NCBI RefSeq assembly: GCF_900112175.1
Contig: NZ_FOYT01000003.1
Location: 186,001-250,000 of the forward strand
Direction of reading: 5' to 3'
DNA length: 64,000 nt
Source of the DNA: Halogeometricum rufum
GTDB taxonomy: Archaea > Halobacteriota > Halobacteria > Halobacteriales > Haloferacaceae
How positions within the stretch are numbered: position 1 is the first letter of the stretch; every line of letters starts with the position of its first letter. Positions 18,591 through 41,622 of the stretch are shown piece by piece. The notes under the pieces are model-generated. The model saw only the letters and a list, made by a program, of their open reading frames with translations, was not told where the DNA came from and made no database searches. A program made the translations under genes and the position numbers.

Positions 18591-19787
18591 TTACTCCCGT
18601 TCTCGTTCGATCTGTTCGCGCGCTTCGAACACGGCGTCGGTGTCGACGGAGAGTTCGTAGACGAAGTAGGAACCGCCGCGTTTACCGTCGTTGTACTCCG
18701 TCTTCGAGAGAAATCCGAGCATCTCGAGCGTTCCGAGGTGGTTCTGGATGCTCTTGAGACTCGTAAGCGGATCGTAGGCGTAGTGACCGGCGACCGTCTC
18801 GTACACGTTGCGTATCTCCTTGCTTCGAGAGGGCGTCTCGTCTTCGCTCTCCAGTCTGGCGACGGACTCTAACACGAGTTGACCGTGAATGGTCTGGTCG
18901 CGAATCTTGTTCGTCACCCGGCCCCGTCGAACCTGTTCGCGAGCGTCCTGAATGTGTTCGTCGGTCACCATGCCGTCGCCCTCCGACTCGGCGAGGTCAC
19001 CGCCGGTACGGAGAAGGTCGAGTGCCTGCCGGGCACCGCCCGTGTCCTGTGCCGCGAGTGCGGCACAGAGTTGGATCGCCGACTCGGAACACGCACCGTC
19101 ACGGAACGCCTTCTCCGCCCGTTTGTCGAGGATGGACCGAAGTTCGTTGGCGTCGTACGGACTGAACGATATCTCCTTCTCCATCAACGTGTCTCGGACC
19201 TTGGGCGAGAGTGAGTCACGGAATCGATAGTTGTTGCTGATTCCGATGACACCGACTTTCGACTCCGTGATGTGCCCGTTCGCCCTCGCGCGAGGGAACT
19301 CGTAGAGGAGTTCGTCGGCGTCGGAGAGGTGGTCTATCTCGTCGAGGACGAACAGGAACGTGCCGCCGATGTCGTCCATCTTCTCGTACAGCGTCTCGAA
19401 AGCGATGTTCGTCGACAACCCCGTCTTCGGAAACGGATCCTCGTCGTCGTCCTGGAGTTTGTTGACGAGAGTACGGACCGCCCCGTAGACGCTGCCCCGG
19501 TTACAGTTGTAGATTCGAACGTGAAGGTCGTCCGCCTCGTCCCGTTTCTCCGTCTCTTCCTCTAACGCCTGCAACATGTAGTTCGTAACCGCCGTCTTCC
19601 CGACGCCCGTCTTCCCGTAGACGAATATGTTGGAGGGATTCCGTCCGAACAACACGTCCTTGAGTGCGTCGCGGTACGCTCGAATCTCGTCGTCGCGTTC
19701 GAGGATAGTGTCGGGTTGATAGTCCTCGGATAGCACCTCCTTGTCCTCGAACAGCGTATTGTCCATGTTACTGAACGGCTGTGTCAT
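18591..19787 (-). CDS. cdc6: Orc1/Cdc6 replication initiator
   Basis: 398-residue AAA+ initiator that binds ORBs and loads the MCM helicase. Walker A GKTGVGKT at 58-65, Walker B FVLDEID with D149-E150, sensor-1 region GISNN (near 180), and a C-terminal winged helix (about 310-385) that reads the ORB. Length is normal for haloarchaeal Cdc6. The ATG at 19787 is supported by a TATA-like GTTTATGT 28-35 bases upstream on the same strand. An ATG seven codons further in is an alternative. The gene lies inside the ORB cluster, as at functional haloarchaeal origins. Confidence 0.95.
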   Translation of the reverse strand: MTQPFSNMDNTLFEDKEVLSEDYQPDTILERDDEIRAYRDALKDVLFGRNPSNIFVYGKTGVGKTAVTNYMLQALEEETEKRDEADDLHVRIYNCNRGSVYGAVRTLVNKLQDDDEDPFPKTGLSTNIAFETLYEKMDDIGGTFLFVLDEIDHLSDADELLYEFPRARANGHITESKVGVIGISNNYRFRDSLSPKVRDTLMEKEISFSPYDANELRSILDKRAEKAFRDGACSESAIQLCAALAAQDTGGARQALDLLRTGGDLAESEGDGMVTDEHIQDAREQVRRGRVTNKIRDQTIHGQLVLESVARLESEDETPSRSKEIRNVYETVAGHYAYDPLTSLKSIQNHLGTLEMLGFLSKTEYNDGKRGGSYFVYELSVDTDAVFEAREQIERERE

Positions 19788-20700: not shown

Positions 20701-21474
20701 TCACCCGGACTGCGTGGCGAGACGACGCTCGAACTCGTCTACCTTCTCGGACATCGCGTCCACGACTGCGCGCTCTCTCGACTCGTCGTGGACGTACGTC
20801 GGACCACAGACGTTGATGGACCCACACACCTCCCCGAGTGGCGTCTTGACCGGCATGCTGACCGCCCACATCCCTTCTATCGCCTCCTCGAAGTTGGTTG
20901 CGTATCCGCGTTCGCGTACCCGTGCGAGTTCTTCGACGAACTCGTCGGCGGAGGTGATGGTGTGCTCCGTCTGCGGGGAGAGCCCCCACTGGTCGAGAAT
21001 CTCGCGGACTCGATGCTCGGGGAACTCGGCCAGAATCGCCTTTCCCGAAGCCGTACTGTGTACGTGGAACAACCGACCATCGACCAGATACGAGGGCGTG
21101 TCGGAGTAGGTGGATTCGTCGTACAACGAGACGACGCGGCCGTTCTCCTCGACGGTGAAGTCGACTTCGAGTTGCGTCTCGTCGGCCAGTTCCGGAACGA
21201 GAGCCTTCGCGACGCCGTACACCTCGTTGCGTTTCCGCGCGTAGTTCCCCAGGTGATAGAGCTTCAACCCGACGTGATAGGTGTCCTCCTCACGACTCAC
21301 GTAGCCGTACTTCGCGAGCGTCTTGAGGTGGTTGTGGACGGTGCTCTTCGCGAGACCCGCCTCGTCGGCCAACTCGGCCAACGTCGCGCCGTCGAGTTCC
21401 GTGATGAGTTCGACGAGACGCAGCGAGATGTCTGTCGTCTGCAGCGTGTCGCTCTCGGTGCTACGCGGTCTCAT
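20701..21474 (-). CDS. IclR family transcriptional regulator
   Basis: 257-residue regulator. An N-terminal winged helix-turn-helix (about residues 14-65, recognition segment AGLAKSTVHNHLKTL) is followed by the IclR effector domain (about 80-250) with HSTASGKAILA near 138 and the NVCGP strand near 224. IclR proteins respond to small aromatic or organic acids and control catabolic genes. It is the only dedicated regulator at the left edge of the compatible-solute island and lies on the same strand as the BCCT transporter, so control of that island is a reasonable inference. Confidence 0.88.
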   Translation of the reverse strand: MRPRSTESDTLQTTDISLRLVELITELDGATLAELADEAGLAKSTVHNHLKTLAKYGYVSREEDTYHVGLKLYHLGNYARKRNEVYGVAKALVPELADETQLEVDFTVEENGRVVSLYDESTYSDTPSYLVDGRLFHVHSTASGKAILAEFPEHRVREILDQWGLSPQTEHTITSADEFVEELARVRERGYATNFEEAIEGMWAVSMPVKTPLGEVCGSINVCGPTYVHDESRERAVVDAMSEKVDEFERRLATQSG

Positions 21475-24073: not shown

Positions 24074-24431
24074 GTCCGCCCACCCCCCTCGACGTGGCTG
24101 ACGAGATGGTTGTGGTGACGATACGACCCGGACCGTCGGTCGTCGGACCGCCTATAGAGATGCATGTGTGAGTGTCGGTAGCAACGTCAGCCAAATGCTC
24201 CAACGACCAGATAAACGTTGTGGGCGATGCCGAGGAGTCGCCCGCCGCGCGGCCGCGAGAGCGGACGCCGCGTGAAACGGTCACAAATCTAAACGGTATC
24301 TGTATCCGCTTCCAGTCGGCCGATGCGGTCGGGGGCGTGTACCGGAATCGAGCGCTATCGACTCCCCGTCGCCGGCAGTAGCGCTTACGGCCTCCACAAT
24401 CCTTAATGGAACACGTACACGAGAAATGTGT
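24074..24431. other. Divergent promoter region of the BCCT and hypothetical genes
   Basis: 358 bases without a gene. The right end holds the TATA box (24401-24408) and palindrome described separately. Nothing else recognised. Confidence 0.5.
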
Positions 24432-24432
24432 A
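24401..24432 (+). promoter_or_regulatory. TATA box and TACAC-N7-GTGTA palindrome
   Basis: CCTTAATG (24401-24408) lies 24-31 bases before the ATG at 24432. A palindrome TACAC-GAGAAAT-GTGTA (24416-24432) ends on the A of that start codon, so a bound repressor would cover the transcription start. The same element, in the same position, precedes the aminotransferase gene at 39913. Confidence 0.6.
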
Positions 24433-25085
24433 TGACGGACGCACCCCCCACGGACGGCGCGGCCGACTCCCTCGCCTACGCGGCGGACAGAGACCGAGGT
24501 ATCCTCACGCCGAGCGACCGCGAGTTCCTCCTCGGTCGGAAGACCGACTACACCGAACACTCGAAGAAGCAGAAGCGCAACCGCATCCGGCGTCGCCTTC
24601 GGAACGCTATCCTCGACTTTACCATCCTGTTCGACCATCTGGAGGACCGCGACCGAGAGACGGTGTTCAACCCCGAAGACGAGGCGCGCGAGGCGTACAC
24701 GCAGGGCATCGTCGACATGCTCGGCTTCCTCCACCTCGGCACGATGGGCTACTACGTCCCGTTCAAGGACATGCTCGGCCAGGGCGTCAACCGCGCCGAG
24801 CAGAAACTCGCCGGCTCCGACTACCGGATGGTGACCGTCGACTTCAACGTCGACCCCGTCGGCCAGATAGACGTCGACGAAGTCGTAGACAAACTGGAAT
24901 CCGAGCGGTTCGACGAGGTGACCGACGAGGAACTCCGCGCGTTCGTTCGCCTCATGACGGAGTCCGAGGCGTTCTCGCCGGGCGAGATGCGGTCGGGAAT
25001 GAAAGAGCAGATGCCCGACTTCCTCGACGCCGTCTCGGAGGCGACTGACCGACGCACCCGGCGCGCCGAGAACCTGAACGACTGA
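24432..25085 (+). CDS. Conserved haloarchaeal protein of unknown function
   Basis: 217-residue acidic soluble protein. An N-terminal segment (ILTPSDREFLLG, residues 24-35) and a strongly basic patch (SKKQKRNRIRRRLRN, near 44-58) precede a mixed alpha/beta region; no catalytic motif is recognised. The start follows a TATA-like box by 24 bases and is overlapped by the TACAC-N7-GTGTA palindrome. The palindrome is shared with an aminotransferase gene of the neighbouring catabolic island, which suggests common regulation. The basic patch could bind nucleic acid. Confidence 0.7.
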   Translation: MTDAPPTDGAADSLAYAADRDRGILTPSDREFLLGRKTDYTEHSKKQKRNRIRRRLRNAILDFTILFDHLEDRDRETVFNPEDEAREAYTQGIVDMLGFLHLGTMGYYVPFKDMLGQGVNRAEQKLAGSDYRMVTVDFNVDPVGQIDVDEVVDKLESERFDEVTDEELRAFVRLMTESEAFSPGEMRSGMKEQMPDFLDAVSEATDRRTRRAENLND

Positions 25086-25325
25086 CCGACGCGCGAACCT
25101 CGGTCCGCCGACCTGGAACGGGTCCCGCGTTGCGGGTCGTTTTCTCTCCTCGTCTGTCCGCACCCGCCCCCGTCGCACAGGTCCCTCTCGTGTCCGGCAC
25201 CACGACACTGGTCATGATAACTGACGTCGCCGGTCTGAGCGAGTATCTCTGACCGGCCGGTCCCCCTTCGGTCTCACCGTCTCGAAAGTAGGATACAGTT
25301 ACTGTGTACGACGTACCGAAGAACG

Positions 25326-25848: not shown

Positions 25849-27228
25849 TTACTGCGCGGCCGTCGCCGTCGTCGCGTGTTCGATGGCGTCCGCGATGACG
25901 TCTAGCGCCGTCTCCGCGAGGTCCCGCGTGAGGACCAGAGGCGGGAGGAGACGCAGGATGTTGCCGTGGCGGCCCGCCTTCCAGACGAGGACGCCGTGTT
26001 CGAAGCAGTAGTCCTGAATCGCGTCGCCGACGTCGCCGTCCGGGTTGCCGTCGGCGTCGACGAACTCCGCGCCGATGAAGAGACCCTTCCCGCGCACTTC
26101 GGCGAGTTGCGGGTTCGACTCGCCGACCTCTTCGAGGCGCGTCTTGATGTAGTCGCCGAGTTCGCGGGCGTGGGCCAACAGGTCGTGTTCCTGGATGTAC
26201 TCGATGGCGCGGGTACCGGCGCGCATGCCGACGACGTGGCCGCGGTAGGTGCCCGCGTGGTCGCCCGACCCCCACGTGTCGAGGTCCTCGTGGTACATCG
26301 TCGCCGAGAGGGGAAAGCCCGTCCCGCCGAGCGCTTTCGCGGAGGTCATCACGTCGGGCGTCACGTCGTACCACTCGCTGGCCCACCACTGGCCGGACCG
26401 GCCGAGACCGCTCTGAATCTCGTCGAAGACGAGGGGGATGTCGTTGTCGGTGGCGATGTCGCGGACGCCCTGCAGGAAGCCCTCCGGCGGCGTGACGACG
26501 CCGCCCTCACCCTGGATGGGTTCGACGATGATGCCCGCGGGGTTGGCCAGTCCGCCGTACGGGTCCTCGACTATCTCCTGCAGTTCTTCGAGGGCGTGGT
26601 CCACCGCCTCCTGCGGCGACTTCTCCATCCGGAACGGGTAGGGGTACGGCGCGTGGACGACGTCGGGCAGGAGGGGGGTGTACGCCTCCTTGAACTTCTT
26701 GTTCGAGGTGACGCTCATCGCACCACTCGTCGCCCCGTGGTACGCGCCGCGGAAGGCGATGAGTCCGTCGCCGCCCGTGTTGTACTTGGAGAGCTTAATC
26801 GCCGCCTCGACGGCGTCGCTCCCCGTCGGCCCGCCGAAGACGGTTCGCATGTTGCCCTGCAGGCCGGCCGGCGCAATCTCGTCGAGTTTCTCGATGAGAT
26901 CCAGACGCGCCTCGGTGGGGAAGTCGACGGTGTGGACGAACTTGTCGGTCTGTTCGTGGACCGCCTCGAGGACGTAGGGGTTCGAGTGACCGACGTTGAG
27001 AACGCCGATGCCGGCGAACATGTCGATGAACGTGTTCCCGTCCACGTCGCGGACCGTCGCCCCCTTCCCCGAATCGAAGGCGATGGGGATGTCCTCGGGG
27101 TACGCGACGGCGCTACTGTCGATGTTCTGCTGCTTCTCGATGAGTTCGCGCGAGCGTGGACCCGGGACGGAGTCGACGGACGGTGCCTCGTCGTAGTGTA
27201 GTTCCGATATCGGTGGTCCGCGTGCCAT
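25849..27228 (-). CDS. Class III aminotransferase, diaminobutyrate/GABA type
   Basis: 459-residue PLP aminotransferase. Features: [15 protein letters not shown] (near residue 134; the PTG-xx-AVEAA pattern is typical of diaminobutyrate aminotransferases), GAYHGAT (near 160), the PLP phosphate and ring region [11 protein letters not shown] (near 270), and the PLP Lys in SAKALGG (near 300). It probably moves the terminal amino group of a diamino acid or omega-amino acid to 2-oxoglutarate. The inner ATG (27228) fits the TATA box at 27251-27259 better than 27234. It diverges from the AOR gene; together they could transaminate diaminobutyrate and oxidise the resulting semialdehyde. Confidence 0.85.
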
Positions 27229-27250
27229 GTCCATGTTGAGGTGTAACTAT

Positions 27251-27269: not shown

Positions 27270-27288
27270 GTATCCATACAACGGATAC
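27270..27288. promoter_or_regulatory. GTATCC-N7-GGATAC palindrome
   Basis: A perfect 6-base inverted repeat with a 7-base spacer lies between the divergent aminotransferase and AOR promoters, just upstream of the aminotransferase TATA box. It is a candidate operator; the regulator is unknown. Confidence 0.5.
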
Positions 27289-27360: not shown

Positions 27361-29022
27361 ATGCTTCACGCGAAAGGCCCGCTCCTGTCTGTCGACGTCG
27401 GGAGCAGGGAGACGAACGCCGTCACAGTTACCGACGTGCTAGAGTCGTACATCGGGGGGCGCGGCGTCGCCACCAAACTCGCGCACGACCGAATCCCGTA
27501 CGACGCCGACCCGTTCGGCCCGGAGAACCGCCTCGTCTTCACCACGGGACCGATGCAGGCGTCGAACATGAGTTTCACCGGACGGATGAACGCCACCGCC
27601 GTCTCGCCCCTGACCGACGGTCTGCTCTCCTCGAACGCCGGCGGGTTCATGTCCCGCCACTTCGCCGACACGGGGTACAGCGCCGTCGAGTTCACCGGTG
27701 CGAGCGACGAACTCCTCGTCGTCCACGTCACCGACGACGGAGTCGATTTCGAGGCCGTCCCCCACCTCGAAGGCGCGACGGTTCCGGACACCGTCGAGTA
27801 TCTCGAAACCGAACACGACATCGGACCGGACCGTACGGCCGTCGTCGGGCCGGCGGGCGAGAACGAAGTGCGCTTCGCCTCCATCATGACCTCCGAGGAA
27901 CGCGCGTTCGGCCGCGGCGGACTCGGTGCCGTCCTCGGTTCGAAGAACGTGAAGGCCGTGACGTTCGGCGGCGACTCCGCGCCCGACATCGACGTTCCGG
28001 CCGGCCAGATGGACATCCACCGCGAGGCCGCGACGGACGACCACATCATGAAAGAGCAGGGCACCGTCGCCGTGATGGACCTCGCCAACGAGGTGAACGG
28101 CTTGCCCTCGTACTACTTCTCCGAGCAGACGTTCGAGGGCGTCGAGGGCATCAACGGCGACGCCGTCGCCTCGAAGAAGTACAAGAAGGGGACCTGTTCG
28201 GCCTGCGCGTTCGCCTGCAAACTCCCCACCCGCGACGAGGAACGCGGCGTCGAGACGGAGGGCCCCGAGTTCGAGGTGGCGATGGCGTTCGGGTCGAACT
28301 CGGGCGTCGACGACATCGTCGACGTGATGAAGTCCAACCAACTCTGCGACGAGTACGGTCTCGACGCCATCTCGGCGGGCAACGTCGTCGCCTCGTACCT
28401 CGCCGCCGAGGACGAGTTCGGCAACCGCGAACTCATCTGGGACCTCGTCGAGAAGATCGCCCACCGCGAGGGCGTCGGTGACACGTTGGCCGAGGGCATC
28501 GACCGGACGCACGAGGAACTCGGCGTCGAGAACTGGACGGTGAAGGGGATGGACTTCGCGGCCCACGAGGGACGCGTCCTGCACGGGCAGGGACTGTCGT
28601 ACGCCGTCGCGAACCGCGGTGCCGACCACATGTACGCCACGTTCTACTCCGTGGAGTATCCGCTGGTGCCGCAGGAGCAAGCGGTGGACCCCGAGGGAAC
28701 GGTGGGGAAGGCGGACGTGCTGATAGAGCGAGAGAACCTGATGGCGCTGAACGACAGCGGCGTGGTCTGTAAGTTCTCGCGGGACTACATGACGCCGGAG
28801 CGCTACGAGATGCTGTTCGGCGCGGACTTCGAGGAGTTGCTGGCGGTGGGCGCGCGGACCGTGACGCTCGAACGGCACTTCAACAACCAGCGAGGGTTCG
28901 ACCGCTCGGACGACCGACTCCCGTACGAGTTGCCGGACTTCGAGGCGGCACTGGACGAGTACTACGACGCTCGCGGGTGGACCGACGACGGCGTCGTCCC
29001 CGAGGGCCACGTTCCGGCCTGA
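27361..29022 (+). CDS. aor: Aldehyde ferredoxin oxidoreductase (tungsten enzyme)
   Basis: 553-residue tungstopterin enzyme oxidising an aldehyde to an acid with ferredoxin as acceptor. The [4Fe-4S] ligands are C279, C282, C286 (CSACAFAC) and the distal C470 (SGVVCKF). The N-terminal GGRG motif (32-35) and GRGGLGAVLGSKN (184-196) match pterin-binding segments of the family. The protein is a little shorter than the roughly 600 residues of Pyrococcus AOR. It diverges from the class III aminotransferase and precedes the ectoine hydrolase homologue, so a semialdehyde is a plausible substrate (inference). Ferredoxin and tungsten-cofactor genes are not in the window. Confidence 0.92.
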   Translation: MLHAKGPLLSVDVGSRETNAVTVTDVLESYIGGRGVATKLAHDRIPYDADPFGPENRLVFTTGPMQASNMSFTGRMNATAVSPLTDGLLSSNAGGFMSRHFADTGYSAVEFTGASDELLVVHVTDDGVDFEAVPHLEGATVPDTVEYLETEHDIGPDRTAVVGPAGENEVRFASIMTSEERAFGRGGLGAVLGSKNVKAVTFGGDSAPDIDVPAGQMDIHREAATDDHIMKEQGTVAVMDLANEVNGLPSYYFSEQTFEGVEGINGDAVASKKYKKGTCSACAFACKLPTRDEERGVETEGPEFEVAMAFGSNSGVDDIVDVMKSNQLCDEYGLDAISAGNVVASYLAAEDEFGNRELIWDLVEKIAHREGVGDTLAEGIDRTHEELGVENWTVKGMDFAAHEGRVLHGQGLSYAVANRGADHMYATFYSVEYPLVPQEQAVDPEGTVGKADVLIERENLMALNDSGVVCKFSRDYMTPERYEMLFGADFEELLAVGARTVTLERHFNNQRGFDRSDDRLPYELPDFEAALDEYYDARGWTDDGVVPEGHVPA

Positions 29023-29070: not shown

Positions 29071-29188
29071 TTCCGTCCGGTCCCCTTCGTTCTCGCGATC
29101 CGTGCGTACCGCTACACAGGATTCGTTCTCGCCGTACACAAAAAAGTTATACCGCTGTTCGCACAACCTGTTTCCGAGTTTCGGTAGC

Positions 29189-30367
29189 ATGCCCCAGTCA
29201 ACGTTCGAACCCAGCGAGTACGAGAGACGCATCGAGGAGACGAAAGCGCGGATGCGCGAGGACGAGTTGGACGCCCTCGTCGTCGCCGACCCGGCGAACA
29301 TGAACTACCTCTCGGGGTACGACGGCTGGTCGTTCTACGTCCACCAGGCCGTCGTCGTGACCGCCGACCGCGACGAACCCGTCTGGGTCGGCCGCGGACA
29401 GGACGCCAACGGCGCGCGCGCGACGACGTGGCTCTCCGAGGAGAGCATCGAGTCCTACAGCGACGACCACGTCCACTCGCCGTACGACCTCCACCCGATG
29501 GACTACCTCGCCGACGTCCTCGAAGCCCTCGGCGTCGCCGACGGGCGAATCGGACTGGAGATGGACGCGTACTACTTCACGGCGAAGTCGTACACGCGAC
29601 TGCAGGAGAACCTCGGCGAGGCGACGTTCGCGGACGCGACGCTTCTGGTCAACTGGGTGCGCGTCACGAAGTCCGAACGCGAACTCGACTACATGCGCGA
29701 GGCCGCCCGCATCTCCGAGGAGGCGATGCTCGCGGGTCTGGAGACCATCGAGGAGGGCGTTCCCGAGTCGGAGGCGGCGCGGGCCATCTACGACGCGCTC
29801 ATCCGCGGGACCGACGACTACGGCGGCGACTACCCCTCCATCGTTCCCCTCATGCCCTCCGGCGACCACACGGGGACGCCGCATCTGACGTGGACGGACC
29901 GCGAGTTCGAACGCGGCGACCCGGTCATCATCGAACTGTCGGGCTGTCGGCACCGCTACCACTCTCCGCTCGCGCGGACCACGTACGTCGGCGACCCGCC
30001 GGCGGAGATGACGGAGCGGATGGAGATAGTGGTCGAGGGGCTCGAAGCCGCCCTCGACGCCGCCGAACCGGGCGTCACCTGCGAACGGGTCGAACGGGCG
30101 TGGCGCGACGTCATCTCGAAGTACGACATCGAGAAGGAGGAGCGAATCGGCTACTCGATGGGACTCGGCTACCCGCCGGACTGGGGCGAACACACGGCGA
30201 GTCTCCGACCCGGCGACGAGACGGTGCTGGAGGAGAACATGACGTTCCACATGATTCCGGGGCTGTGGTTCGACGACTTCGGCGTCGAACTCTCCGAGAC
30301 GTTCCGTATCACGTCGAACGGCGCCGAGGTGCTGGCCGACTTCCCGCGGGAGTTGTTCTCGACGTGA
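29189..30367 (+). CDS. doeA: Ectoine hydrolase homologue (DoeA/EutD, M24 fold)
   Basis: 392-residue creatinase/M24-fold hydrolase. Long stretches match DoeA/EutD: SGYDGWSFYVHQ (42-53), GRGQDANG (68-75), HPMDYLA (102-108), GGDYPSIVPLMPSG (212-225), PHLTWTD (231-237) and GYPPDWGEHT near 332. DoeA opens the ectoine ring to give N-acetyl-2,4-diaminobutyrate. The metal ligands of aminopeptidase P are lost (Asp to E249, Asp to P260, later His and Glu also changed), as expected for the metal-free creatinase-like branch rather than a proline peptidase. The inner ATG at 29189 is chosen; the upstream frame has no matching sequence. Neighbouring aminotransferases, AOR and amidohydrolases complete a catabolic set. 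Confidence 0.88.
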   Translation: MPQSTFEPSEYERRIEETKARMREDELDALVVADPANMNYLSGYDGWSFYVHQAVVVTADRDEPVWVGRGQDANGARATTWLSEESIESYSDDHVHSPYDLHPMDYLADVLEALGVADGRIGLEMDAYYFTAKSYTRLQENLGEATFADATLLVNWVRVTKSERELDYMREAARISEEAMLAGLETIEEGVPESEAARAIYDALIRGTDDYGGDYPSIVPLMPSGDHTGTPHLTWTDREFERGDPVIIELSGCRHRYHSPLARTTYVGDPPAEMTERMEIVVEGLEAALDAAEPGVTCERVERAWRDVISKYDIEKEERIGYSMGLGYPPDWGEHTASLRPGDETVLEENMTFHMIPGLWFDDFGVELSETFRITSNGAEVLADFPRELFST

Positions 30368-32920: not shown

Positions 32921-32959
32921 GTGTATCCGCTGTGTACGGAATTTGTGTACCATTAAGTG
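32921..32959. promoter_or_regulatory. Three GTGTA half-sites and a TATA box
   Basis: GTGTA occurs at 32921, 32932 and 32945, followed by the TATA-like CATTAAGTG (32951-32959), 24-32 bases before the AbgA-like ATG. The half sites match the arms of the TACAC-N7-GTGTA palindromes elsewhere in the island. Confidence 0.45.
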
Positions 32960-32982: not shown

Positions 32983-34260
32983 ATGCCAGCGACGACCACG
33001 CTAGACCTCCGTCAGTTACGACGAGCGTTCCACCGCTACCCCGAACCCGGGTGGCGGGAGTTCTACACCACGGCGAAACTCGTCGAGGAAGTCGAGTCCA
33101 TCGGTGTGGACGAACTCGCGGTCGGTCCCGAGGCGTACGACCCGGCGGATCGGATGGCCGCGCCGGACCCCGAGGACGTGCGGCCGTGGATGGACCGCGC
33201 CGTCGAACGCGGCGCGGACGGGGACCTGGTCGAGGCGATGGCCGGCGGCAACACCGGACTCGTCGCCGTCCTCGACCGGGGGGAGGGACCGCACGTCGGG
33301 GTCCGCGTGGACATCGACGCCCTCTACGTCGAGGAGTCCGCGGCCGACGACCACGTCCCGGCCCGCGAGGGATTCCGCTCGGAGGTGGACGAGACGATGC
33401 ACGCCTGCGGCCACGACGCCCACATGACGTGGGGCCTCGCCGTCCTCGACGCGGTGAAGCGGAGCGACTTCTCCGGACGGCTCACCGTCTTCTTCCAGCC
33501 CGCAGAGGAGGTGTCCGGCGGGGGGCACCCGATGGCAGAGAGCGAGTACGCCACGGGACTGGACTACCTGTTCGCGGCCCACGTCGGCCTCGACCACCCG
33601 ACGGGCGAAGTCGTCGCCGGCATCGAACGCATCCTCGCGATGTGCCACGTGGACGCGACGTTCGAGGGGACGTCCGCGCACGCCGGGAAGGCCCCGAACG
33701 AGGGGGACAACGCGATGCAGGCGCTCGGAACGGCCATCCAGAACGCCTACGCCATCCCGCGGCACGCCGACGGGATGACCAGAGTGAACGTCGGCGTCGC
33801 GGAGTCGGGCACGGCGAGCAACGTCGTCGCCGAGGAGGCGACCATCCACGGCGAGGCGCGCGGCGAGACGACGGAACTGATGGAGTACGTGAAGGGAAAG
33901 CTCTCGACGACGCTCGAATCGGCCGCGGAGATGCACGGCTGCGACGCGCACGTGGACGTGGTCAGCGAGTCGCCCCGCGTCGACAGCGACCCCGAACTGG
34001 CGCGCGTCGTCGCCGACGTCGCCGGCGGGGTGGACGGCGTCGAGACGGTCAGGACGCACGCGGACTTCGGCGCGAGCGAGGACGCGACGTTCCTCATGGG
34101 ACGCGCGCAGGAGGCGGGCGGACTGGCGACGTACCTCGTCGTCGGGACTGACCACCCGACGAGCCACCACACATCGACGTTCGACGTGGACGAGCGGAGC
34201 CTCCCCATCGGCGTCGAGGTGCTGACGAACGCGGTGCTGTCGGCGGGTGAGACGACGTGA
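32983..34260 (+). CDS. M20D amidohydrolase, AbgA-like; candidate N-acetyldiaminobutyrate deacetylase
   Basis: 425-residue zinc amidohydrolase of the AbgA type (aminobenzoyl-glutamate hydrolase subunit A). Metal and catalytic residues: H140 and H144 in the MHACGHDAH motif, E175/E176 in FQPAEE, H200 in AAHVG, and HHTS near the C terminus. The dimerisation domain with HAGKAPN is complete. Two lines place it in solute catabolism: it overlaps the PLP dehydratase gene by 4 bases, and it lies near doeA while no DoeB/EutE-type deacetylase is seen. It may therefore remove the acetyl group after ectoine ring opening (inference). A TATA box precedes the ATG by 24 bases. Confidence 0.85.
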   Translation: MPATTTLDLRQLRRAFHRYPEPGWREFYTTAKLVEEVESIGVDELAVGPEAYDPADRMAAPDPEDVRPWMDRAVERGADGDLVEAMAGGNTGLVAVLDRGEGPHVGVRVDIDALYVEESAADDHVPAREGFRSEVDETMHACGHDAHMTWGLAVLDAVKRSDFSGRLTVFFQPAEEVSGGGHPMAESEYATGLDYLFAAHVGLDHPTGEVVAGIERILAMCHVDATFEGTSAHAGKAPNEGDNAMQALGTAIQNAYAIPRHADGMTRVNVGVAESGTASNVVAEEATIHGEARGETTELMEYVKGKLSTTLESAAEMHGCDAHVDVVSESPRVDSDPELARVVADVAGGVDGVETVRTHADFGASEDATFLMGRAQEAGGLATYLVVGTDHPTSHHTSTFDVDERSLPIGVEVLTNAVLSAGETT

Positions 34261-38542: not shown

Positions 38543-39913
38543 CTACGAGGACGGTGCGGAGGGAGTTCGGGTCGCCACGCTGTCGACGGCGTCGGTGAAG
38601 ATGTCGATACCGAGCGCAATCTCTCGTTCGGTGGCGTCGAGCGGTGGGAGCAGACGAATCGTCTTCTCGCCGCAGCCCAGCGTGAGGAGTCCGCGCTGGA
38701 GCGACGCCTCGACGACGGCGTTGCGCCGGTCTGCGGTGTCGAACTCGACGGCGAGCATGAGGCCCTTTCCGCGCACGTCCGCCACGTACTCGGGGGCGTC
38801 GTCGCGGAGCAGTTCCTTGGCCTGCCGACCGCGTTCCGTCGCGTTCTCCAGCAGGTCGTACTCCTCGATGGCGTCGAGGGTGAAGACGCCCTGCATCGAC
38901 GAGAGGACGTCCCCGCCGCCGAACGTCGACCCGAGCCGGTTCGACTCCGCGGGGAACAGTTCACCGTTCGCGATGGTCGCGCCGACGCGGAGCCCTTTCG
39001 CGCTGGCGATGACGTCGGGTTCGATGGGGTAGTGGTCCGACGCCCACATCTCGCCGGTCCGACCGACGCCCGACTGAATCTCGTCGACGACGAGGGGAAT
39101 GTCGTACTCGTCGGTCACGTCCTGCACCTCCTGCATGAAGTCGTCGCTCGGGAAGCGGTAGCCGCCGACGCCCTGAATCGGCTCCATCACGACGAACGCC
39201 ACCTCTGCGGGGTTGACGTGGCCGCCCTCCGGACTGAGCATGCGGCGCAACTGCGTGCCCTCGCCCGTCACGAACCCGCAGTCGCAGGTGGCGGCGGTAC
39301 ACCCCCGGTCCGTGCAGAAGGGGACCGTCTCGATGCCCGAAATCTGGGGGTAGTGGCGCGTGTACACCTCGCTGGACTTGGTGACCGACAGCGTCCCCAG
39401 CGTCCGCCCGTGGAAACTCCCCTCGAAGGCGACGCCGTACTTCGCCGCCGGCGCGTTGTCGTGTGTTACCTTCATCGCGTTCTCCATCGCCTCAGCGCCG
39501 GAGTTCGAGAGGAAGACGGTGTCCATATCGTACCCCTCGGACACCTCGCACAACCGCTTCATCAGGTGGCTGGACCCGGGGAACGGCGACGACTCGGGGT
39601 CTTCGCCCGCGCCGAAGTACATGTCCTGCCCGGCTATCTTCATCGGTTCCACGAGGTCGAACTCGCGGAGTTTGTCGAGCACTTTCTCGTTGTTGTAGCC
39701 GAGGGGTGCCGCGCCGATGTGGCAGGTGAAGTCCAGCAGGACGTTGCCGTCGACGTCCGTCACGAACGGGCCGTCCGCCTCGGCGGTCACGTCCCAGACG
39801 AACTCGTGAGAGTACTCGCTCGGGGCCGCGTGCTCGGAGTGGAAGTCGATCCACTTGGCCGCGTTCGGACCCGGCAGACCCTCCGCTGTCGGTTCCGCGG
39901 TGTGCCTATCCAT
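38543..39913 (-). CDS. Class III aminotransferase with a cysteine-rich insert
   Basis: 456-residue PLP aminotransferase: SNSGAEAMENAMK (near residue 136), GSFHGRT (near 164), VVDEIQSGVGR (near 271), PLP Lys in ASAKGL (near 299). A segment near residues 198-209 carries four Cys spaced C-x4-C-x4-C-x-C, unusual for this fold and possibly metal binding or structural. The start at 39913 follows a TATA box by about 24-33 bases and overlaps the TACAC-N7-GTGTA palindrome. The amino donor may be a diamino acid, beta-alanine or GABA. A second aminotransferase in the same island suggests two different steps or substrates. Confidence 0.87.
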   Translation of the reverse strand: MDRHTAEPTAEGLPGPNAAKWIDFHSEHAAPSEYSHEFVWDVTAEADGPFVTDVDGNVLLDFTCHIGAAPLGYNNEKVLDKLREFDLVEPMKIAGQDMYFGAGEDPESSPFPGSSHLMKRLCEVSEGYDMDTVFLSNSGAEAMENAMKVTHDNAPAAKYGVAFEGSFHGRTLGTLSVTKSSEVYTRHYPQISGIETVPFCTDRGCTAATCDCGFVTGEGTQLRRMLSPEGGHVNPAEVAFVVMEPIQGVGGYRFPSDDFMQEVQDVTDEYDIPLVVDEIQSGVGRTGEMWASDHYPIEPDVIASAKGLRVGATIANGELFPAESNRLGSTFGGGDVLSSMQGVFTLDAIEEYDLLENATERGRQAKELLRDDAPEYVADVRGKGLMLAVEFDTADRRNAVVEASLQRGLLTLGCGEKTIRLLPPLDATEREIALGIDIFTDAVDSVATRTPSAPSS

Positions 39914-39946
39914 ACACAACGAGTGTGTATGCCGTCCATTAAAACT
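39911..39946 (-). promoter_or_regulatory. TATA box and TACAC-N7-GTGTA palindrome at the aminotransferase start
   Basis: TATA-like GTTTTAATGG (minus strand, 39937-39946) is followed by the palindrome CATACACA-N5-TGTGTATG (39911-39931), whose last three bases are the start codon. The core TACAC-N7-GTGTA and its position match the promoter at 24416-24432. Confidence 0.65.
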
Positions 39947-40081: not shown

Positions 40082-40098
40082 TACACATAGTGAATGTA
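40082..40098. promoter_or_regulatory. TACAC-N7-ATGTA near-palindrome
   Basis: One mismatch from the TACAC-N7-GTGTA element, located between the divergent aminotransferase and AbgB-like genes, 97 bases before the AbgB-like start. Confidence 0.35.
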
Positions 40099-40194: not shown

Positions 40195-41622
40195 ATGGCA
40201 AAATCGGACGTGTTCGCCCGGGTGGACGAGGCGGAGGACCGGTTGACGCGCATCGCGCGGGAGTTGTGGGAGACGCCGGAACTCGGCCTCCACGAGGAGC
40301 AGTCCGCGGCGGTCCTGCGGGACGCCCTCGAAGCGGAGGGGTTCGAGGTGGAGAGCGGCGTCGGCGGGATGCCGACGGCGTTCGTCGCCACCTACGGCGA
40401 CGGCGACCCGACGGTCGGCATCTTGGGCGAGTACGACGCGCTCCCCGGACTCTCCCAGCGAGTCTCGGCCGACCGGGACCCGGTCGAACCGGGCGGGCCG
40501 GGACACGGCTGTGGCCACAACCTGTTCGGGACGGCGGGGGTCGGCGCCGCCCTAGCGGTGAAGGGGGCCATCGACGCGGGCGAGGTGGACGGAACCGTCG
40601 CCTTCTACGGCTGTCCGGCCGAGGAGACGTTGGTCGGAAAGACGTACATGGCCCGCGCGGGCGCGTTCGACGACCTGGACGCGGCGTTGACGTGGCACCC
40701 CGGCGACCTCAACACGCCGCGGATGGGCTCCTCGAACGCGCTCGACTCGCTGACGTTCACGTTCGAGGGCGTGTCGGCGCACGCCGGTGGGTCGCCCGAC
40801 TCCGGTCGGAGCGCCCTCGACGCCGTCGAATTGGCGAACGCCGGGGTGGAGTACATGCGCGAACACATCTCCGACGACGCCCGGATGCACTACGTCATCA
40901 CGAACGGCGGGCAGGCACCCAACGTCGTCCCCGCCGAGGCGACGGTGTGGTACTACGTCCGCGCGCCGACCCGCGAGGAGGTCGAACGCAACACCGACTG
41001 GCTCCGCGACATCGCCGAGGCGGCCGCGAAGATGACGCAGACGACCGTCTCGGAACGGTTCCTCACCGGGTGCTACGACTACCGCGCCAACGACGTCGTC
41101 TCGAACGTCGTCTGGGAGAACGTGCGGGCGGTCGGTCCCATCGACTACGACGACGCCGACCGCGCGTTCGCCGCCGAGTTGCAGGCGACGGTGGCAGACG
41201 AGCGAATCGAGTCGCGCCTCTCGGACCTCCCGGACGAACTCGCCGACCGGGTTCGAGACGAACCCCTGTACGCCGACCCGGTCGAACCGTTCGACCACGA
41301 CCAGCAGACGCACGGGTCGACCGAAGTCGGCGACGTCAGTTGGATAACGCCGACCGGCCAGTTCCGCGGTGCGACGTGGCCCGTCGGCGTCCCCGGCCAC
41401 TCGTGGCAGGTGGTCGCGGCGAACGGCGACTTCGGACTGAAGGGCGTCGCCTTCGCGGCCAAAGTGCTCGCGGGCGCGACGTACGACCTGTTGGCCGACG
41501 AGGAACGACTGGCGGCCGCGCGCGAGGAGTTCGAGGCCGAAATCGGCTCGGACGCCTACGAGACGCCGCTTCCCGACGACGCGGAACCGCCGTTCGACGT
41601 GACCGCGATGGGCGGTGAGTGA
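40195..41622 (+). CDS. M20D amidohydrolase, AbgB-like
   Basis: 475-residue metallo-amidohydrolase of the AbgB type (aminobenzoyl-glutamate hydrolase subunit B). LGEYDALPGLSQ (near residue 80), GHGCGHNLFGT (metal His pair, near 105), the catalytic Glu region GCPAEET (near 143), TWHPGD (near 168) and DVSWITP (near 382). It occurs apart from the AbgA-like gene, unlike the E. coli abgAB pair, so the two may be separate single-subunit amidases. It diverges from the Cys-rich aminotransferase. Substrate candidates are N-acyl amino acids, including an N-acetyl-diaminobutyrate isomer. Confidence 0.85.
   Translation: MAKSDVFARVDEAEDRLTRIARELWETPELGLHEEQSAAVLRDALEAEGFEVESGVGGMPTAFVATYGDGDPTVGILGEYDALPGLSQRVSADRDPVEPGGPGHGCGHNLFGTAGVGAALAVKGAIDAGEVDGTVAFYGCPAEETLVGKTYMARAGAFDDLDAALTWHPGDLNTPRMGSSNALDSLTFTFEGVSAHAGGSPDSGRSALDAVELANAGVEYMREHISDDARMHYVITNGGQAPNVVPAEATVWYYVRAPTREEVERNTDWLRDIAEAAAKMTQTTVSERFLTGCYDYRANDVVSNVVWENVRAVGPIDYDDADRAFAAELQATVADERIESRLSDLPDELADRVRDEPLYADPVEPFDHDQQTHGSTEVGDVSWITPTGQFRGATWPVGVPGHSWQVVAANGDFGLKGVAFAAKVLAGATYDLLADEERLAAAREEFEAEIGSDAYETPLPDDAEPPFDVTAMGGE

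Follow-up and report, generated by a model that had tools for sequence, protein, structure and literature searches.

The window, a 64 kb stretch of Halogeometricum rufum DNA, carries a group of genes coding for a BCCT-family transporter, a RidA-like protein, a class-III aminotransferase (AT2), an aldehyde ferredoxin oxidoreductase (AFOR), a DoeA-like M24 hydrolase, the glutamate dehydrogenase GdhB, a 2-hydroxyacid dehydrogenase, an M20 amidohydrolase, a threonine ammonia-lyase and others. Judged from its enzymes, this group looks like an ectoine-type catabolic island, its substrate being putative. The DoeA-like protein is a relative, scoring 483 bits against the cut-off of 613 set by the ectoine hydrolase equivalog model TIGR02993 (DoeA/EutD), and AFOR (27361-29022) stands where an ectoine-type pathway would have an aldehyde dehydrogenase. 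Most of the island genes recur near P1, a 217-residue protein annotated without a function, in 20 neighbourhoods from other genomes; L081 holds few of them. A Cdc6/Orc1-type replication initiator gene (18591-19787) lies near the island, whose contig is 369 kb long, and the island may be on a secondary replicon, as in relatives with plasmid-borne copies. Two gene calls were revised: a P1 start at 24426 was replaced by the ATG at 24432, judged from orthologues, and an antisense open reading frame at 33016-34170 (minus strand) was discarded, since annotation and Pfam show the plus-strand amidohydrolase there. The features discussed below are listed in Table 1.

Table 1. Genes, promoter elements and dyad sites in the window (positions counted from its first base).
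Feature	Position	Strand	Remarks
IclR-family regulator, earlier candidate	20701..21474	-	co-occurrence argues against partnership with the operator
BCCT-family transporter gene, divergent from P1	22439..24073	-	no site found at start
TATA-like element CTTAAT, P1 promoter	24402..24407	+	-30 to -25 from ATG; from sequence
Operator copy 1, TACAC-GAGAAAT-GTGTA	24416..24432	+	final A is base 1 of the P1 start codon
P1, 217 aa, function-less annotation, proposed regulator	24432..25085	+	near-invariant basic helix, residues 45-60
Weak site GATAC-AGTTACT-GTGTA, 2 mismatches	25292..25308	+	upstream of RidA-like gene; poorly conserved
AT2, second class-III aminotransferase	25849..27229	-	PF00202 only
DoeA-like (ectoine hydrolase-like, M24) gene	29102..30367	+	TIGR02993, 483 bits
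Probable third site TGTAC-GGAATTT-GTGTA, 2 mismatches	32933..32949	+	amidohydrolase promoter, -50 to -34
M20-type amidohydrolase gene	32983..34260	+	PF01546; divergent from 2-hydroxyacid dehydrogenase gene
AT1, class-III aminotransferase	38543..39913	-	PF00202
Operator copy 2, TACAC-ACTCGTT-GTGTA (minus-strand reading)	39913..39929	-	overlaps AT1 start codon
TATA box TTTTAA, AT1 promoter	39939..39944	-	-31 to -26 from ATG; from sequence

The dyad TACAC-N7-GTGTA occurs exactly twice in the window, at the start of P1 and at the start of the aminotransferase gene AT1, and nowhere else. Each copy begins 8-9 bases past a TATA-like element and ends on the A of the ATG, and the distance from the TATA element to the ATG is 25-31 bases at both genes. 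This spacing suggests that the P1 and AT1 transcripts are leaderless, in which case the dyad would fill the interval from the TATA box to the transcription start. An earlier note on this DNA had described such a palindrome shared by two start codons, each copy following a TATA element and ending on the ATG, and we confirm both exact copies. The dyad that it placed at 39911-39931 is also present, although that span is the extended form CATACAC-N7-GTGTATG, which arises because the dyad runs into the gene's own ATG (39913-39911) on the minus strand; the exact core is 39913-39929. Its estimate of about 0.02 chance occurrences in 64 kb is matched by dinucleotide shuffles of the window (mean 0.02), with two copies in none of 100 shuffles.

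Scanning the whole genome (4,187,125 bases) gives three exact places for the dyad and none for the reversed pattern. The third copy, at C1:668721, is GC-rich and appears to sit within a coding stretch, so the many copies inside coding regions that the note had named as grounds for abandoning the operator are not found among exact matches. When one mismatch is allowed the dyad is found at 51 places versus 17 for the reversed control, and single-mismatch copies without conservation therefore carry little weight.

Conservation was assessed in 69 AT1 upstreams from 68 of the roughly 88 P1-encoding genomes in two draws, with the loci read spanning eight family groups (f1, f4, f5, f6, f7, f12, f14 and f17). 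Measured at precisely -16 to 0, the dyad has zero, one, two or three mismatches among its ten arm positions in 35, 21, 12 and 1 of these upstreams, respectively; 68 of the 69 thus have no more than two mismatches at this fixed offset, compared with 0.05% (0.0005) of random places in the same loci. The best-kept columns of the AT1 upstreams (66 sequences) are TTTTAAT and both arms of the dyad. At an in-frame start of P1 itself, a dyad with at most one mismatch is present in 40 of 52 orthologues and with at most two in 44. From this conservation it is close to certain that the operator at AT1 and P1 is real. The other eight P1 orthologues have no dyad within two mismatches at their own start, and AT1 in those genomes keeps its dyad where read; autoregulation by P1 would thus not be universal. 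We note that most of the loci L026-L033, L212 and L213 have lost the dyad at the P1 start and retain the one at AT1 where read, and that some of them have other GC-rich inverted repeats at the P1 promoter, such as CCCGGTTTCCGGG.

A probable third site precedes the amidohydrolase gene at 32983, directly upstream of its TATA element and 49-50 bases before the ATG. Among 21 loci, this site is exact in three (L078, L080 and L083) and has one or two mismatches in ten, including the window, and no dyad within two mismatches is seen at that place in the remaining eight. The AT2 promoter region has a conserved TGTGTAC/TGTGGAC half-site pattern and lacks the full dyad, and no consistent site was found at the RidA, AFOR and BCCT promoters across the loci read.

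The dyad at AT1 is found with P1. The 119 genomes of the family include 34 with P1 (E below 1e-80) and 35 with a close AT1, and every P1 genome has AT1; the 243 genomes of the order include 77 with P1, 74 with AT1 (E of 1e-200 or less) and 72 with both. Where AT1 occurs in a genome without P1 the dyad is absent in three of three cases, the only such AT1 genes available: the corresponding positions have seven mismatches in G006 (AT1 80% identical), eight in G184 (66%) and four in G208 (64%), whereas equally diverged AT1 genes (65-67%, family f14) in P1 genomes retain the dyad with one mismatch. Across the 119 genomes, 31 of the 36 places in P1 genomes that match the strict pattern TACACN7GTGTATG fall in the island (counted by hand). 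The 85 P1-less genomes show the pattern at six places, and in the six genomes concerned it does not stand at P1-family genes. This presence/absence comparison covered P1 and the IclR-family protein only. Further genes of the island likewise accompany P1 and AT1; because they share P1's distribution, co-occurrence alone cannot single out P1, and the role proposed for it rests as much on evidence from its protein family.

P1 has no Pfam match at E 0.001, the best being DUF1128 at E 0.19, and no NCBIfam match, and profile searches with P1 or its family found no recognised DNA-binding domain. Its net charge is -15, yet one 20-residue stretch, KKQKRNRIRRRLRNAILDFT, has a net charge of +8 and is nearly invariant across 28 P1 orthologues. 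Copies in the relatives G036, G215 and G182 are likewise annotated as 'hypothetical protein'. In the 38-sequence alignment A2, P1 has the family motif block, with an N-terminal RGILT..DR..L.G followed by R.RIR.R and DF, and R20, L25, R30, L33, R55 and D62 are invariant; by this measure it is a member of a haloarchaeal family without a Pfam or NCBIfam model. An AlphaFold model built from A2 is helical with a pLDDT of 78, and it was used in place of a model from close orthologues only (A1; pLDDT 44). Foldseek comparison of the A2 model with PDB and viral libraries gave no match at E 0.001 or less, VIA-align gave a best Z of 3.3 with no usable match, and searching the PDB with an HMM of A2 yielded no match below E 0.096. 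The N-terminus of one family member (L101:3500-4225) weakly matches the viral family phrog_26393 (E 0.0013), a hint of virus-borne relatives.

We collected 40 divergent P1 paralogues in 16 groups and scored their upstreams for dyads at 160 candidate centres. The best mean score is at -8, the same centre as in P1, with 3.45 of 7 pairs compared to a mean of 1.83 (SD 0.28) over all centres. All three outer pairs are complete in 19 of the 40 paralogues versus 2 of 140 control genes, although the former figure is inflated by relatedness, as these paralogues come from just 4 of the 16 groups, and at the level of group means the difference from controls is not significant (p = 0.10). The controls are annotated haloarchaeal ATG starts, 16 of 156 annotated genes having been dropped because their start is not ATG, and they replace an earlier set of 442 automatically chosen ATGs. 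A start-centred dyad is therefore not a property of every family member, and the claim for the family rests on the groups that show it, above all that of P0004.

Orthologues of P0004 number 30, in 30 of the 243 genomes and in ten families, and nearly all have ATAAYC-N7-GRTTAT twice, centred at -51 and -8, on both sides of TTTATATA. The second copy ends on, and merges with, the ATG; its three outer pairs are all present in 19 of the 30, and most of the others differ by a G in place of A at the outermost position. One miss among the 30, L272, has a misplaced start and does not enter the 29-sequence consensus. This is the layout expected of an autoregulated DNA-binding protein, here outside the island and with another dyad of equal geometry, and some members of the P1 family appear to recognise, at their own promoters, dyads that share this geometry and differ in sequence. 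In the P0004-type loci L254-L283 the dyads lie within 75 bases before the start; an example of such a gene is L106:3353-3910 (minus strand), whose protein ends DDGRIQSKVTEF.

Taken with conservation, co-occurrence and gene neighbourhoods, all of which support the proposal in the earlier note of a shared operator linking a hypothetical gene to the catabolic island, these family data lead us to a strong inference that P1 is the binder of the dyad. It is quite probable that P1 is autoregulatory, and that by binding the start-codon dyad it would block its own promoter and that of AT1 and so control the island. The main competing explanation is that a regulator encoded elsewhere binds the dyad and P1 is merely regulated by it, with an enzymatic or structural role. 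A plain pathway protein would also co-occur with island genes, P1 has no known DNA-binding domain, and some P1 clades have lost the site at the P1 start while that at AT1 stayed. We nonetheless consider this unlikely, since dyads of the same geometry stand at the starts of P1 paralogues outside the island (with two copies flanking the TATA box in one group), the basic helix of P1 is near-invariant, and hardly any exact sites lie outside the island, as would suit a regulator with a local and not a global role.

The IclR-family protein, which the earlier note had favoured as the binder, has some points in its favour: an IclR gene is located close to the island both in the window and in 9 of 20 neighbourhoods, and the best NCBIfam matches of the protein are to BhcR and to PcaR/KdgR-type catabolic regulators. 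The presence of the operator does not match that of IclR orthologues, however. A close IclR (match better than 1e-60) is missing from 15 of the 34 P1 genomes, and their AT1 dyads are present with no more than two mismatches where read; in G006, conversely, an IclR gene (54% identical) stands 3.9 kb from AT1, and both P1 and the AT1 dyad are missing. There is also no dyad at the start of the IclR gene itself. The distribution of the dyad follows P1 instead of IclR, and the assignment to IclR, which we now regard as improbable, was probably wrong.

A different kind of explanation is that GTGTATG is a general feature of start regions, such as an initiator or translation signal, or part of an mRNA structure, and no operator at all. 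The right arm does always merge with the start codon, but the dyad is missing in 21 of 21 AT1 paralogues (4-9 mismatches; twenty at about 60% identity and one more), most of which show a TATA-like element, and the outer three pairs are as rare in annotated haloarchaeal genes as the controls above indicate. Moreover, the left arm is conserved though it lies upstream of the expected leaderless transcript, and the amidohydrolase copy sits upstream of the TATA element, making this explanation very improbable. A chance pair of palindromes, to which the many single-mismatch copies in the genome might seem to point, is refuted by the shuffles and by the single offset kept in nearly all AT1 upstreams, and its probability is negligible.

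With P1 as the regulator, the position of the sites suggests how they could act. According to two reports (PMC4158304, PMC10817205), archaeal TrmB-type sites located downstream of the TATA box or at the start lead to repression, and those located upstream can activate; repression by P1 would therefore be expected at its own and the AT1 promoters. There P1, probably as a dimer, would occupy the dyad that separates the TATA box from the leaderless-type start and block the recruitment or assembly of RNA polymerase. MDR1 of Archaeoglobus fulgidus, with no relationship to P1 seen, offers a precedent for this mode of action, being described in PMC4158304 as hindering the recruitment of RNA polymerase when bound downstream of the TATA box. 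At the amidohydrolase gene, and at other island promoters in some relatives, the dyad lies just upstream of the TATA element, and P1 may there activate or cover the BRE; TrmB-type precedents leave room for activation as well as for repression through overlap with the BRE. An intermediate of the island pathway would probably release P1, and an ectoine-type compound is our guess from the enzymes.

Several known systems bear comparison. TrmB of Halobacterium and TrmBL1-Tgr of the Thermococcales likewise act through a palindromic archaeal operator of metabolic genes, but their motifs are TACT-N7-8-GAGTA or TATCAC-N5-GTGATA, which the sites described here do not match, and TrmB has a (winged) helix-turn-helix domain, PF01978, that was not detected in P1 in the Pfam search at E 0.001. 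In bacteria the MocR/GabR-type protein EnuR, as presented in PMC5924519, is a local repressor of the ectoine catabolic cluster with N-alpha-acetyl-DABA and DABA as inducers, and a local role at an ectoine-type gene cluster is what we propose for P1. EnuR is a PLP-binding protein of the GntR type, however, and P1 has neither domain; a Pfam scan of 20 island-region ORFs found no GntR domain, AT1 and AT2 carry PF00202 only, and no GntR-type HTH fused to an aminotransferase was seen among these proteins. Given the inducers described for EnuR, acetyl-diaminobutyrate and diaminobutyrate are the first effector candidates for P1. BhcR and PcaR of the IclR family are catabolic regulators too, and a protein of that family is encoded beside the island, but as described above the operator is distributed otherwise.

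A palindromic operator as such is of a known kind, and it is the unrecognised regulator family that is of interest. We propose, as a suggestion evenly balanced between being right and wrong, that P1 is the first member of a new class of transcription factors in archaea, widespread in haloarchaea and absent from Pfam, NCBIfam and PDB. In this class a basic helix within a helical, non-HTH fold would read dyads of one geometry with member-specific inner bases, located on the start codon of the member's own gene and, for one subgroup, upstream of the TATA box as well; P1 would be dedicated to an ectoine-type catabolic regulon. The openly searchable journal literature yielded no report of the operator or of a regulator of haloarchaeal ectoine catabolism. 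The proposal gives a large family of haloarchaeal 'hypothetical proteins' a testable function, with predicted binding sites for two subgroups. If it is true, archaea gain a type of regulator without a recognised DNA-binding domain, and a switch can be named for a catabolic island that by sequence resembles an archaeal version of ectoine use.

Two further dyads were observed in the window. The first, TACACATAGTGAATGTA at 40082-40098, has a single mismatch and lies about 113 bases before an M20 amidohydrolase gene at 40195; no counterpart was seen at this gene in L065-L067. The second, GTATCC-ATACAAC-GGATAC at 27270-27288, where the AT2 and AFOR genes diverge, is a perfect 6-7-6 dyad with the same geometry and another sequence, and in its place relatives have the TGTGTAC/TGTGGAC half-sites.
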